A DNA stretch of 64,000 bases from Acidobacteriota bacterium (lineage in GTDB: Bacteria; Acidobacteriota; Terriglobia; Versatilivoradales; Versatilivoraceae): positions 124,001 through 188,000 of the forward strand of contig JAJDUG010000072.1 of NCBI GenBank assembly GCA_022826755.1, given 5' to 3'. Positions 31,966 to 51,459 of the stretch are shown here, piece after piece (within the stretch, counting starts at the first letter, position 1; every line of letters starts with the position of its first letter). The notes below the pieces were generated by a model, which saw nothing but the letters and a program-made list of their open reading frames with translations, was not told the origin of the DNA and did not search any database. Made by a program: the position numbers and the translations under genes.

Positions 31966-31994
31966 TTCGAAATAGACGGCTTCGATGCTATAAA
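31966..31994 (+). promoter_or_regulatory. Extended -10 promoter candidate for the AhpD-like gene
   Basis: TGCTATAAA at 31986-31994 is an extended -10; TTCGAA stands 17 bases before the hexamer as a weak -35. Transcription would start near 32001 and run through the first copy of the 101-bp element before reaching the TTG start at 32203. Confidence 0.35.
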
Positions 31995-32054
31995 ATCCAT
32001 TGGGCCCTGCCTCGTGACCTGGCTCGGCAACACGGCGGTCCTCTTTCGGCGCGC

Positions 32055-32156
32055 AACGGCCCCCGATTGCTGGAACCCATAAGGATCTCTCGAGCCGACC
32101 TTTTCCCGGTGGAGCCTTCACCGAAAGGGGCAACTCTATTTCTGAGACAGGACACC
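32055..32156 (+). repeat. Copy 1 of ~101-bp element
   Basis: This segment can be aligned along its whole length with 33541-33641 in the same orientation. Both begin AACGGC, share TCTCTCGA in the middle and GTGGA further on, and end with the same 16 bases, TCTGAGACAGGACACC. It lies 46 bases before the AhpD-like start codon. Whether it is the end of an insertion sequence, a miniature element or a cis-regulatory RNA is not decided by the sequence. Confidence 0.6.
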
Positions 32157-32202
32157 GGGATCGGACCAGGACACCCCAAACCCCCATACAAGGAGTTGGC
32201 AC

Positions 32203-32571
32203 TTGAACCGCAAGACTGACCGGACTTCGGAGGACGCCCCCACGCCTTCTCACCACAACGAGTCGGCTCGCAAGATCGAAAGCTACAGCATGCTGGCTCC
32301 GCGAATGAAGAGAATCTACTTCGAATTCTACTCGGAGACCTACAAGGAATCCCGACTGGACCGTAAGACCAAGGAGCTCATTGCGATTTCCGCATCGCTG
32401 ACGGCCAAGTGCCAGGGCTGCCTGGAGGGCCATATCAAGAAGGCCCTCAAGTTGGGCGTTACCAAGGAAGAAATCAGCGAGACCATCGCCATCGCCATGG
32501 GAGTCAATGCCGCGGCCGTCGTGGATGTGACCGATATCGCCGCAGCCAACCTCAACCTGAAACATTATTAG
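32203..32571 (+). CDS. Carboxymuconolactone decarboxylase / AhpD-like protein
   Basis: A 122-residue all-helical protein of the CMD superfamily. The redox-type CxxC with following His is in KCQGCLEGHIKKALKLG at about residues 68-84, the AhpD-like arrangement that supports alkylhydroperoxidase or disulfide-reductase activity, rather than decarboxylation. Family core: LDRKTKELIAISASLTAKC and TKEEISETIAIAMGVNA. The start is TTG at 32203, with AAGGAG 7 bases upstream; no ATG fits. It is likely a peroxide or thiol-stress protein; substrate unknown. Confidence 0.85.
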   Translation: MNRKTDRTSEDAPTPSHHNESARKIESYSMLAPRMKRIYFEFYSETYKESRLDRKTKELIAISASLTAKCQGCLEGHIKKALKLGVTKEEISETIAIAMGVNAAAVVDVTDIAAANLNLKHY

Positions 32572-32738
32572 GCTTACGCACGACACCGCGCCGTCGAGGA
32601 CTTTCGTCGAAACCCGCTCCCTACTATCAGCGGTTGATCTGCCACGATCGGAGCTTTCTGCCCCATAAAGGACAACTGGCGGCTTTGTTTCCGGAAGGCA
32701 TTCCCTGAAACCTCCTCCGGCGCCGCGCTTTCCCCCGA

Positions 32739-33446
32739 ATGGAACGACTTCATCAACCTGACGGCAGTGATCCCGCGGAGGGCCTCCGTCTCAGTGAATC
32801 GGAGGTGCGGGCCCAAGCCTTCTACGATCGTTGGATCGGAGAGGGTGACTTCTTCTCCCAACTGGGGCGCGCGGTATTCAGCCTGAGCGGCGCGGTCTAC
32901 GCCGGAAGCTTCATCCGGGCAGCAGGCCTTCGACCCGAGGATCGGGTGATGGAGGTCGGTTCGGGGCTGGGCAGAATCCTGACGACCAGCCAACGTCGCG
33001 TCCGGGCGGAGCAGCTCTACGTCGGGATCGACCTGTCCTACCAGATGGTGCAGAGGGCCCGAAGGGGCCTGGACCCGCAAAAGCCGCCACCCCACTTCCT
33101 GGTCGCCAGCGCCCTGCAAATGCCCTTCCGCCCGAGATGCTTCGATGTCGTGCTGCTCTCCCACGTGGCGAAGTACCTGACCGACCCGCAGTTGCGCCAG
33201 GTGCTGGCCCAGGTGAGGGAATTGCTGCGCCCGGGAGGAAGGATCGTTCTGTGGGAGTTCCGGCCCTATGCCTGGGGCCGGATCAATCGCGCCATCCTGC
33301 GCGGCAGCCGATCGCACAAGCTGCGAAGCGCCGCCGAACTGGTGGCCTTCCTTCAGGAACAGGGCTACCGCAACCTGCAGCCTTTTCGAGTTCACACCCC
33401 CTGGCCCCCTTTCCGCAACCTGGCCTATCGGGCGCAGGCGGGCTGA
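32739..33446 (+). CDS. Class I SAM-dependent methyltransferase
   Basis: A 235-residue methyltransferase. The SAM-binding motif I is VMEVGSGLGRIL at about residues 70-81, motif II is the acidic YVGIDLSYQMV, and motif post-I to III is FDVVLLSHVAKYL followed by LLRPGGRIVLWEF. The protein belongs to the Methyltransf_11-like group. There is no clue to the acceptor: neighbours are the AhpD-like and amidohydrolase genes, each preceded by a copy of the 101-bp element. The ribosome binding site is weak, so the start is moderately sure. Confidence 0.83.
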   Translation: MERLHQPDGSDPAEGLRLSESEVRAQAFYDRWIGEGDFFSQLGRAVFSLSGAVYAGSFIRAAGLRPEDRVMEVGSGLGRILTTSQRRVRAEQLYVGIDLSYQMVQRARRGLDPQKPPPHFLVASALQMPFRPRCFDVVLLSHVAKYLTDPQLRQVLAQVRELLRPGGRIVLWEFRPYAWGRINRAILRGSRSHKLRSAAELVAFLQEQGYRNLQPFRVHTPWPPFRNLAYRAQAG

Positions 33447-33540
33447 AGCGGCCTTGCGGCGCGCTTTTTCCTGCGGTCGGCCTCCCACCCGGAGAGAAAT
33501 GCGCGCCAAGGCCGATGGAGGTTTCGGGGAGGGGAAGCAC

Positions 33541-33641
33541 AACGGCGCTGGTTGGCTGAAAGGCCACGGGTCTCTCGACCCCACCGTTTCTCTGTGGAAC
33601 CTCCAGCGGAGATGGTAATCTTATCTCTGAGACAGGACACC
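33541..33641 (+). repeat. Copy 2 of ~101-bp element
   Basis: Directly repeated relative to 32055-32156, 1485 bases downstream; the last 16 bases are identical in the two copies and end 7 bases before the amidohydrolase ATG. Within this copy GGTCTC near 33569 could pair with GAGAC near 33629, so the element may fold as one long hairpin. Confidence 0.6.
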
Positions 33642-33648
33642 CGTTATC

Positions 33649-34599
33649 ATGGCCCTCATGGATGCTCTGTGTGACGCTCACCTTCATTTTTTCACCCGGG
33701 AGGTGCTGTGTTTTTACGCCAGGCAGTCCGCGGAGTACCGGGCACTCGAGGATCCCGCCACCCGGGTGGCGCAACGGTTGGGCATCTCACTGCCGCCCGG
33801 GGAGCCGCAAGATCTGGCCAGGTTGTGGGCGGAGCAACTGGATCGTCACCGGGTCTCCCGTGCGTTCCTTTTCGGAAGCGTCCCGGGCGAGCAGAAGGCG
33901 GTGTCTCAGGCGGTTGCCGCCTTTCCGCGCAAGTTCGCCGGCTTCCAGATGCTGAACCCGCTGGACCCGCAGGCCGGCAGGGCCACTGCCGACATCGCCG
34001 CCAGGGGGCTCCGAGGGCTGCTGCTCTTTCCGGCCATGCACCGGTTTTTCCCGGACGACCCCGCCTGTCTGGAAACCTGCCGCCAGGCCGAACAGCATGG
34101 GCTGATAGTCTTCGTCCACCTCGGACCCTTGCGCATCGTCATTCAGGAAAAACTGGGGGGCGGCGGCGCCATCCGGGAGAGCTACGGAGACCCCCGGCGT
34201 TTGGGCATCGCCCTCCGTGCCTTTCCGGAGGTCCCCTTTATCGTTCCCCACTTCGGCTGCGGCCTGTTGACCGAGGTGCTGGATTCGGCCAGGGAAACCC
34301 GCAACCTCTACCTGGACACCTCCAGCTCCAACTCCTGGATGCAGCAGGGACCGGAGCCCACCGATCTGGAGACCGTCTTCGGCAAAATGCTGGAGGAGAA
34401 AGCCTTCGGGCCCGAACGCCTGCTGTTTGGGAGCGATTCCACCGTGTTTCCCCGAGGGTGGAGAAAAGACATCTATCTGGCTCAGCGGGCGGCGCTGGAT
34501 CGATTGAGGGTATCGTCCCGCGAGAGACGGCTCATTTTTTCCGGCAACCTGGAACGCCTGCTGGAGCCTGCCGGAGCCGCCACCCGGCCAACGGCTTGA
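33649..34599 (+). CDS. Amidohydrolase-family (TIM-barrel) hydrolase
   Basis: A 316-residue amidohydrolase_2-type protein. The first metal-binding motif appears as CDAHLHFF near the N terminus; later features are [31 protein letters not shown] and [14 protein letters not shown], matching His, His and Asp ligands of the barrel. The family hydrolyses or decarboxylates small carboxylate or lactone substrates; the substrate is unknown. An internal ATG at 33658 is an equally possible start. The Gfo/Idh gene follows 56 bp downstream on the same strand and may be co-transcribed. Confidence 0.83.
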
Positions 34600-49566: not shown

Positions 49567-51459
49567 ATGGGTAACGGCACCTTTCAAGACCATGATGTGA
49601 TAGTGATCGGCGGCGGGCATGCCGGCGTGGAAGCGGCAGTGGCGGCGGCGCGGATGGGGTTGGATACCGCGCTCTACACCATGAATGCCGACCTGATTGC
49701 GCAGATGTCCTGCAATCCGGCCATTGGGGGTATCGCCAAGGGCCACCTGGTCCGCGAGCTGGATGCCATGGGCGGCGTGATGGGAGAGGTAATCGATCGG
49801 ACCGGGATTCAGTTTCGGTTGCTGAACCGCAGCCGCGGCCCGGCCGTGTGGTCACCGAGAGCCCAGGCTGACAAGCAGCGGTATCGTGTCGCCATGCGCC
49901 GTTTGCTGGAAGGGGAGGCCCGCCTCGGAATCAAGCAGGCCGAGGTCGTGGAGATTGTGAAAGAGAACGGGCGAGTCAGCGGAGTCGAATTGGCAGACGG
50001 CCGCCGAGTGGGCGCCCGCGCCGTGGTGTTGACCACGGGCACCTTCCTGAACGGGCTGATCCATGTCGGCGAGCGGAAGAGTGCTGCCGGCCGCAGCGGC
50101 GAATCGCCGTCGGTCCCGCTGGCCGAATCGATCAAGGCCATGGGGTTCAGTTGGGGGCGCATGAAGACGGGAACGCCGCCGCGGCTGGATGGACGGACGA
50201 TCGACTTCGGGTTGGCCGAAGAGCAGGAAGGAGACAAGGACCCCACGCCCTTCTCCTTTAGAACCAAGCGGATAGACCAACCTCAGGTATCCTGCTTCAT
50301 CGCCTACAGCAATCAACGGACGCACCAGGTGGTCCGGGACAATCTGAACCGGTCACCGCTCTATAGTGGACGGATTCAGTCAATCGGTCCTCGCTACTGC
50401 CCTTCCTTCGAGGACAAGGTGGTGAAGTTCCCGGAAAGGCCGAGGCATCAGATTTTTCTGGAGCCTGAAGGACTCGACACCAACGAGATTTACGTCAATG
50501 GGCTTTCGACCAGCATGCCGCCCGATGTCCAGATGGAGATGGTGCGCTCCATTCGGGGCTTGGAAGAGGCAGAGTTGATTCGGCCGGGATATGCCGTTGA
50601 GTATGACTACGTGGATCCCCGCGAGCTGTTTCCGTCCCTGCAAACCAAGCGCATGGCCGGATTGTTCCATGCAGGCCAGATCAATGGGACCACCGGCTAT
50701 GAGGAGGCTGCCTGCCAGGGGCTGATGGCCGGAATCAACGCGGCCCGCTGGGTGAGGGGCGAGGAGCCGGTGGTGCTGGGACGGGATGAGGCTTATATTG
50801 GTATCCTTGTCGATGACTTGGTCACCAAGGGAACCGACGAGCCCTATCGAATGTTCACCTCCCGGGCCGAATTCCGGCTGCAGTTGAGAATCGACAATGC
50901 GGACCGGCGGCTGACACCTCTCGGGGGGAAGTTGGGACTGATCGGGAGGGACGATCTGGAGAACTACCAGGCCAAGCAGCAGCGCATGGAGAACTTGAGG
51001 GCCGTCTTGGCGGAGAGGCGCATTCATGTGGGGAGTGGCAGGATTTCGGCAAAAGAGGCCCTGAAGCGCACGGATTTCCGCATCGGGCAGTTTGTCTCGG
51101 AGCTTCCCGGAGCCCTGCGGGAGGAGTTGAGCGCGGAAGAATTGCGCAGCGTGGAGACGGAGATCAAGTATGAGGGGTATCTACGGCAACAGAAGGCGGA
51201 AATCGAAAAGATGAGGCGGGCCTCGGCCAAAGCGCTGCCCGCTGATTTTGAGTATGGGAGCATTGCGGGTCTGTCGCGCGAAATTGTGGAGAAACTCTCC
51301 CGAATCCGGCCGGTGACCATCGGTCAGGCCAGTCGGATCCCGGGGGTGACACCAGCTGCGCTTGCCATCATCCATGTTCACCTGGAGATCGATCGCCGCA
51401 AGAGAGAAGCGGGTGTCCTTTCTCGGAAGACACAACACGAGGGCTTAGGCACGGGATGA
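49567..51459 (+). CDS. mnmG: tRNA uridine-5-carboxymethylaminomethyl modification enzyme MnmG
   Basis: A 630-residue FAD protein, partner of MnmE. FAD-binding motif [21 protein letters not shown] near the N terminus; [18 protein letters not shown] and [22 protein letters not shown] are invariant signatures; [29 protein letters not shown] closes the FAD domain, and the C-terminal helical domain is present. The ATG at 49567 is preferred to 49522, which would overlap mnmE. rsmG overlaps by ATGA. Confidence 0.97.

Follow-up and report, generated by a model that had tools for sequence, protein, structure and literature searches.

Two similar stretches of DNA stand directly upstream of two unrelated genes in the window (the whole stretch of 64,000 nucleotides analysed here), and the question is what brought them there. 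The preliminary description took them for an end-to-end duplicate of 101 bp in the same orientation and offered two readings, a mobile-element terminus or miniature element and a cis-regulatory RNA. The similarity and the orientation stood (76% identity over an ungapped 74 nt, 32083-32156 against 33568-33641), as did the common finish of 16 bases, TCTGAGACAGGACACC, and the distances of the stretch ends from the next start codons (46 bases upstream of the start at 32203 and 7 bases upstream of the start at 33649). The end-to-end duplicate of 101 bp did not, as the true bounds of the two copies are different (Table 1). Both stretches are very probably remnants of a non-autonomous miniature element, a MITE of the IS630/Tc1 type, and the first of the two readings was thus the right one.

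Table 1. Features of the two copies, their surroundings and the shortest two-TIR forms; coordinates given without genome and contig are positions in the window
Feature	Position	Strand	Evidence
Copy 1 (GTGACC...GGACAC), MITE of 142 bp after internal deletion, two ends kept, the left one diverged	32014..32155	+	
Copy 1, left TIR, diverged	32014..32043	+	match to element positions 2-62
Copy 1, right TIR, with common 16-mer at 32141-32156	32126..32155	+	
Copy 2, fragment with the right half of the MITE (element positions 139-270)	33510..33641	+	
Copy 2, right TIR, with common 16-mer at 33626-33641	33611..33640	+	
Copy 2, possible remnant of left TIR, AGAAAT (tentative)	33493..33498	+	by eye
Promoter-like site upstream of copy 1	31967..31996	+	1 found, 0.2 expected
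Carboxymuconolactone decarboxylase (CMD/AhpD-like) gene, 3' of copy 1	32203..32571	+	PF02627, E 8.2e-19
Methyltransferase gene, between the copies	32739..33446	+	PF13649, E 1.7e-18
Amidohydrolase gene, 3' of copy 2	33649..34599	+	PF04909, E 1.6e-23
35-bp two-TIR form (L019/L020)	G000:C40:65230-65264		
Two-TIR form (L221)	G001:C1:3743352-3743400		
Two-TIR form (L222)	G001:C1:4480903-4480951		
Two-TIR form (L223)	G002:C703:5893-5941		

A dispersed repeat family in the genus

Searching both stretches against the genome and its relatives, as had been suggested, revealed a multi-copy family in the home genome (G000, 4.62 Mb in 81 contigs) and in six congeners (G001-G006, of which G001 is a complete chromosome). 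The duplication goes beyond chance: with two mismatches or fewer, the home genome matches the 16-mer in 34 places and the reversed control in none. The survey of its distribution covered 40 further genomes, the six congeners and 34 from other genera. Each congener carries the 16-mer at 19-67 places (reversed control 0-2 per genome), and the genomes of other genera at 0-6 places (reversed control 0-3), which is no clear excess. Matches at E ≤ 0.01 identified 19 distinct places of the element in the home genome, when eight overlapping opposite-strand TIR matches were subtracted from the total of 27. A 20-mer, GGAACCTCCATCGGAGATGG, was present in 23 stretches of named genomes in a scan possibly without the home-genome records, all in five Acidobacteriota MAGs, and its carriers include Candidatus Versatilivorator vitaminiformans and one complete chromosome. 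The host animals of these genus genomes we take, from the kind of MAG, to be sponges.

Copies are located at gene ends and on both strands across the genomes. When 30 of the 34 TIR places of the home genome were compared with ORFs called by a home-made codon-usage caller, 24 fell outside the called ORFs, though about 83% of the window is coding. That two unrelated genes each have a copy in front reflects the dispersal of the family and no common regulator. With copies throughout the genome, sited like those of a transposable element, a shared function as RNA regulators fails by the refuting condition of the preliminary description itself, though local exaptation of single copies may have occurred. 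This closes the question: the two "leaders" go back to separate, unrelated insertions of the same dispersed element.

The 270-bp element had no match among plasmids and phages, and Rfam gave none in the window nor in four copy-bearing loci. The repeat family was not found in the literature searched on IS630, MITEs, CTAG sites and Acidobacteria, and no literature was found under the genus name Versatilivorator. The family itself is new; its kind, the IS630/Tc1-type MITE, is already known.

Structure and variation of the intact element

The intact element is about 268 bp long and has TIRs of about 30 bp beginning GTGTTCTGTCTCAGAAA, the element proper being GTGTTCTGTCTCAGAAATAGGGTTGCC...GGAACCTCCATCGGAGATGGTAATCCTATTTCTGAGACAGGACAC. 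Of near-full-length copies 37 distinct ones were collected; with one base counted at either edge, most of them measure 267-271 bp. The structure alignment consisted of 34 of these 37 rows (L091, L104 and L095 left out) and the pair-change analysis of 38 copies of 255-285 bp (L095 left out); the copy sets include orthologous insertions (e.g. L090/L091 and L120/L104), so the copies are not all independent. In the consensus structure a TIR stem some 30 positions long, in which most cells are paired, encloses a long arm 1 (33-131), then a small hairpin and then arm 3 (142-155/228-241) with a variable loop. The GTCTC/GAGAC pairing suspected earlier is real in the intact element, where GAGAC pairs with the GTCTC in the TIR at the other end; it does not hold for the window copies, GTCTC being mutated to GGCTC in copy 1 and missing from copy 2. 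The conserved arm 1 also contains a direct repeat, GGAGCGACGACGA (element positions about 60-71 and 97-109), which is possibly a protein-binding site.

No conserved reading frame was found in the intact element, and a length polymorphism of one nucleotide within the interior speaks against coding. Forms that are shorter but retain both ends measure 231-232, ~143, 119, about 47-49 and 35 bp, and solo ends occur too; the graded series of internal deletions keeps one or both ends. The forms of 35-49 bp are little beyond two back-to-back TIRs and make near-perfect intergenic hairpins. Elements of the REP/REPIN class are also short palindromic repeats, linked to a RAYT transposase.

The fold of the intact copy L090 reached -150.5 kcal/mol (z -9.9), and the median z of full-length copies was -10.6 on one strand against -7.6 on the other (first 20 of the 38 copies, 20 shuffles each). 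The pairwise difference per site among the 38 copies was 0.12 in the left TIR, 0.083 in arm 1 and 0.16 in the right TIR, 0.06 and 0.02 in the arm-3 stem, and 0.26 in the arm-3 loop; the difference in variability between arm 1 and the arm-3 loop was reached in 0 of 10,000 permutations. Since all parts of one copy are equally old, the interior would have been constrained while the family spread. This counts against the MITE account, as interior arms less variable than the TIRs are not predicted for a plain deletion derivative.

Rather doubtfully, the interior may encode on one strand a selected three-armed structure, either RNA or folded ssDNA, needed for spread or survival. This reading is based on the lower variability of arm 1 and the arm-3 stem in comparison with the TIRs and, by a wide margin, with the loop, and further on a weak excess of G-U over A-C on one strand, which is also the strand that folds more strongly. 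The excess was 45 against 35 columns over all predicted pairs (p 0.31), 25 against 16 columns in 66 conserved pairs (p 0.21; four majority-GU and no majority-AC pairs) and 13 against 4 when the variants counted were those occurring in at least two copies (p 0.049). Because the subset of 66 pairs was picked after the first result, the asymmetry is suggestive only. As proof of selection on RNA it was rejected, being weak and its subset post hoc.

TIR bases 11-14 change together with their partners: CTCA/TGAG is present in 20 of the 38 copies, AACA/TGTT in seven, CCCA/TGGG and TTCA/TGAA in two each and CCGA/TCGG and CTGA/TCAG in one each, while five are asymmetric. Ends to which a single transposase binds should be symmetric, and the co-change in the TIRs alone is thus no evidence of RNA. 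On a tree of the interior the joint TIR types required a minimum of 17 changes, with only one independent pair on supported branches. Outside the TIR stem, two-sided Watson-Crick changes were found in two pairs (46-119 and 51-114), three cells in all. If the three-armed structure were indeed selected, the element would be a MITE whose cargo is a structured molecule. The stronger conservation of the interior arms relative to the ends merits the attention of specialists.

The two copies and their neighbouring genes

The left part of copy 1 (32014-32074, 61 nt) is 74-75% identical to the left end of the intact element, and its right part matches the intact element from 32051/32069 to 32156. The deletion junction lies between short repeats ending CAACGG. 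Both length and junction are identical in five other copies (L212, L213, L214, L215 and L217, in G002, G003, G004 and G005), so the deletion has either spread or recurs. Copy 2 shows 80% identity to the intact element over 132 nt (E 1.7e-27, 2.4e-28 and 2.3e-28).

Copy 1 probably sits in the leader of the CMD/AhpD-like gene. The TATAAAAT box of the promoter-like site is present in six of the seven genus genomes, G001 reading TATAAGAA, and copy 1 is absent from the syntenic leader, 3' of the TATAAAAT-like box, in all six congeners; the leader is lengthened by copy 1 in the home species only. It counts against the MITE account that copy 1 is only ~73-75% identical to the intact element, in contrast with the empty site in the nearest sister genome, which is ~7% diverged at fourfold sites.

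The site of copy 2 is empty in G001 and G006, the two being alike, and in G002-G005 it holds a solo right end of 24-33 bp with differing left junctions. The 16-mer at this site is identical in all 16 positions in the home genome and G002, G003, G004 and G005, and stands in the same place and orientation in these five of the seven genomes. Such a pattern would be produced if the right end of an ancestral insertion, with its AGGA, had been kept in the translation-initiation region of the amidohydrolase gene: the left junctions differ as though the right end alone had been retained, and with 64 of 118 fourfold sites of the amidohydrolase gene identical across all five carriers, 16 identical sites have a probability of about 6e-5 at the fourfold rate. 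We nevertheless regard this local exaptation as improbable, because G006 and G001 lack the 16-mer, the AGGA lies 12 nt from the ATG, which is long for a Shine-Dalgarno sequence, and 16 bases are a small target chosen after the fact. No congener is closer to the home genome than G006, with 121 of 130 fourfold sites identical (~7% diverged), and yet its site is empty, so a single old insertion of copy 2 requires replacement in G006. Parallel insertion or recombination at the site is as likely as retention.

Elsewhere in the window, a TIR-like 16-mer with two mismatches (51412-51427, minus strand) is located near the end of an ORF that by eye resembles mnmG, and G000, G002 and G004 have comparable ends at a distance of 17.8-18.0 kb from the amidohydrolase site. 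An old insertion may there have become part of the C-terminus of the protein.

Target site and stop codons

The near-full-length copies have flanks of CTA type on the left and of TAG type on the right. TA is present at the left edge of 22 of the 37 copies, at the right edge of 14 and at both in 10, and the lack of an intact TA on both sides in the remaining 27 counts against the MITE account. Three loci have an empty CTAG target, and at only one of them (C74) did comparison with the empty site show a clean TA duplication. There the filled site of the home genome (G000:C74:125608-125876) reads GGTA-[GTG..CAC]-TAGCC and the empty site of G001 and G006 GCTAGCC, a comparison showing that TA was duplicated. 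At G000:C9:14432-14701 the empty site is CCCTAGCC in G001 and G003, where TAG closes the left ORF; G002 reads CCTTAGCC, and the contig of G006 stops before the site. The third, at rpsK, is an empty TCTAG in G006 and G001, and the home genome runs CTA-GTGTCCTG and then lacks ~40 bases of the spacer, which is an insertion followed by a deletion. Ancestral conservation of the solo end at rpsK was considered and rejected, as the end is present in one of the seven genomes.

In G003:C100 and G005:C164 (L203 and L202) the region following rpsK differs from the other five genomes, and the rpsD-like sequence is replaced by unrelated sequence past its start, which suggests a rearrangement.

The CTAG on both sides is compatible also with a 4-bp duplication (CTAG/YTAR) made by another DDE transposase, of the IS5-like kind, as for MITEPsy1, which in the available text of its description duplicates CTAG or YTAA (PMC3189936). 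The inner G of the left end (G2), however, is invariant in 34 of 34 rows and bases other than G also follow the right TA, which favours a 2-bp duplication of TA over a 4-bp duplication of CTAG. As several IS630 ends of the genus moreover start with the same GTGT, an IS5-like mover seems quite improbable.

The MITE starts with G and ends with C, and TAG is therefore restored on either side when it inserts into C-TA-G. Of the 40 intact copies counted, 15 coincide exactly with a stop codon, eight at the left end and seven at the right (copies with less than 700 bases of flank were dropped, and nine of the 40 overlap an ORF call). With TAG rebuilt on both sides, insertions into stop codons would be harmless and copies would gather at gene ends and in spacers. 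This target rule, C-TA-G with ends G...C regenerating TAG stops, merits specialist attention. The window itself is strongly depleted in CTAG, with eight found against 219 expected from base composition; two of the eight are at stop codons.

A regulatory RNA at the two loci

The second reading of the preliminary description was a cis-regulatory RNA common to the 5' leaders of the CMD/AhpD-like and amidohydrolase genes, transcribed and folding into a regulatory structure. Its basis is the location of both copies on the coding strand, immediately 5' of the starts and, for copy 1, 3' of a promoter-like site, together with the very strong folding of intact copies and double changes in the TIR stem that preserve the pairing. 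The window copies themselves, however, are no more stably folded than shuffled sequences (z -0.75 and -1.36; about -1 in a repeat test), and a riboswitch-like regulator is thus unsupported. Neither are the positions conserved: copy 1 is missing from six of six leaders, and copy 2 is a solo end in four of six and absent from two. The family keeps no conserved position upstream of particular genes, its copies lying also at gene ends and on both strands, the symmetry of the TIRs is expected of any transposon, and Rfam gave no match. The regulatory reading is thereby largely refuted at the two window loci, and we consider it highly improbable.

IS630-type elements and the search for a transposase

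The assignment of the MITE to the IS630/Tc1 superfamily is well supported. The element is short and non-coding, has TIRs, is dispersed and mainly intergenic, and shows insertion polymorphism and a target-site duplication, as MITEs do; the 2-bp TA duplication inside a preferred CTAG target is that of IS630/Tc1. An IS630-family transposase acting in trans would have cut and pasted the element, insertion at C-TA-G would have restored TAG on both sides, and older copies would have shed the interior or one end by deletion.

DDE_3 (PF13358) had 28 matches in five of the seven genus genomes, 16 of them in G001 and none in G003 and G005; the latter two are the richest in copies of the element and yet without a DDE_3 match, which counts against the account, although MAG assemblies lose repeats. 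When copies were intercompared, the IS630 (DDE_3) elements of the genus were found to be bounded by CTAG; the start is TA-GTGT in several, whose ends read GTGTnnTG or the like. The sequences expected at the ends of an IS630-type partner are GTGTTCTGTCTCAGAAA or GTGTYCTGTAACAG directly after TA. The closest ends, those of L157 in G001 (GTGTCCTGACATTGAA), agree with the element in 12 of 16 positions, only the outer GTGTCCTG being identical, and the others in 6-11 of 16. The ends of the element had no close match at the 28 DDE_3 loci, and its interior had no match to the genus IS630 loci (best E 0.057 over 28 nt). Inspection of the matches in six genomes (G000 and G002-G006) revealed no inward-facing pairs of ends 0.6-3 kb apart. 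An autonomous partner with these TIRs was thus found neither by the DDE_3 search and the scan of the 28 loci nor by the TIR pattern in six genomes, and this too counts against the account. In G001:C1, two IS630-type elements with four nearly or fully identical copies each (L147, L149, L150, L151; L152-L155) have apparently been active recently.

That the two stretches are broken ends of a full known insertion sequence, as their likeness to IS630-type ends (12/16 for L157) could imply, is next to impossible, given dozens of complete copies of 267-271 bp with both ends and no transposase gene, and an interior unlike the IS630 loci. The MITE provides a new repeat family for a genus of uncultured sponge-associated Acidobacteriota, which aids annotation, strain typing and the dating of rearrangements.

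Comparison with known systems

Tenzen and Ohtsubo in 1991 reportedly described a preference of IS630 for the TA in CTAG. Elements of the IS630 family insert at TA with duplication, according to the available text (PMC2170065). The element shares with this family the TA duplication and the CTAG sites, and several IS630s of the genus also have TA-GTGT ends; it differs in having no transposase gene. MITEPsy1 of Pseudomonas syringae is likewise a MITE using CTAG sites, but in the accessible part of its description it has 100 bp, IS5-like ends and a 4-bp duplication (PMC3189936).

The Correia/NEMIS elements of Neisseria, as far as the consulted text describes them, resemble it in the length of the TIRs, in their TA termini, in having size classes that differ in internal sequence and in a strongly base-paired RNA (PMC2229807). 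Unlike the present element they are, in the same text, 105-155 bp long, reside in a different host phylum and have been proposed to be processed by RNase III.

The ERIC/IRU elements of enterobacteria are ~127 bp long. In the part of the literature at hand they also have TA termini, a TIR, a target duplication and a highly base-paired transcript (PMC2229807); their TIR is, in contrast, 7 bp, and the likeness is one drawn from descriptions.

The Repeat Unit of Pneumococcus (RUP), compared by its available description, is with 107 bp and a 9-bp TIR unlike the present element of ~268 bp, with its TIRs of ~30 bp and long internal arms. RUP is, in the same sources, likewise a short non-coding TIR element with TA termini, a target duplication and IS630-like ends, for which IS630-Spn1 is the proposed mover, and its transcript is structured (PMC2229807, PMC3049150), as the intact element described here folds strongly.
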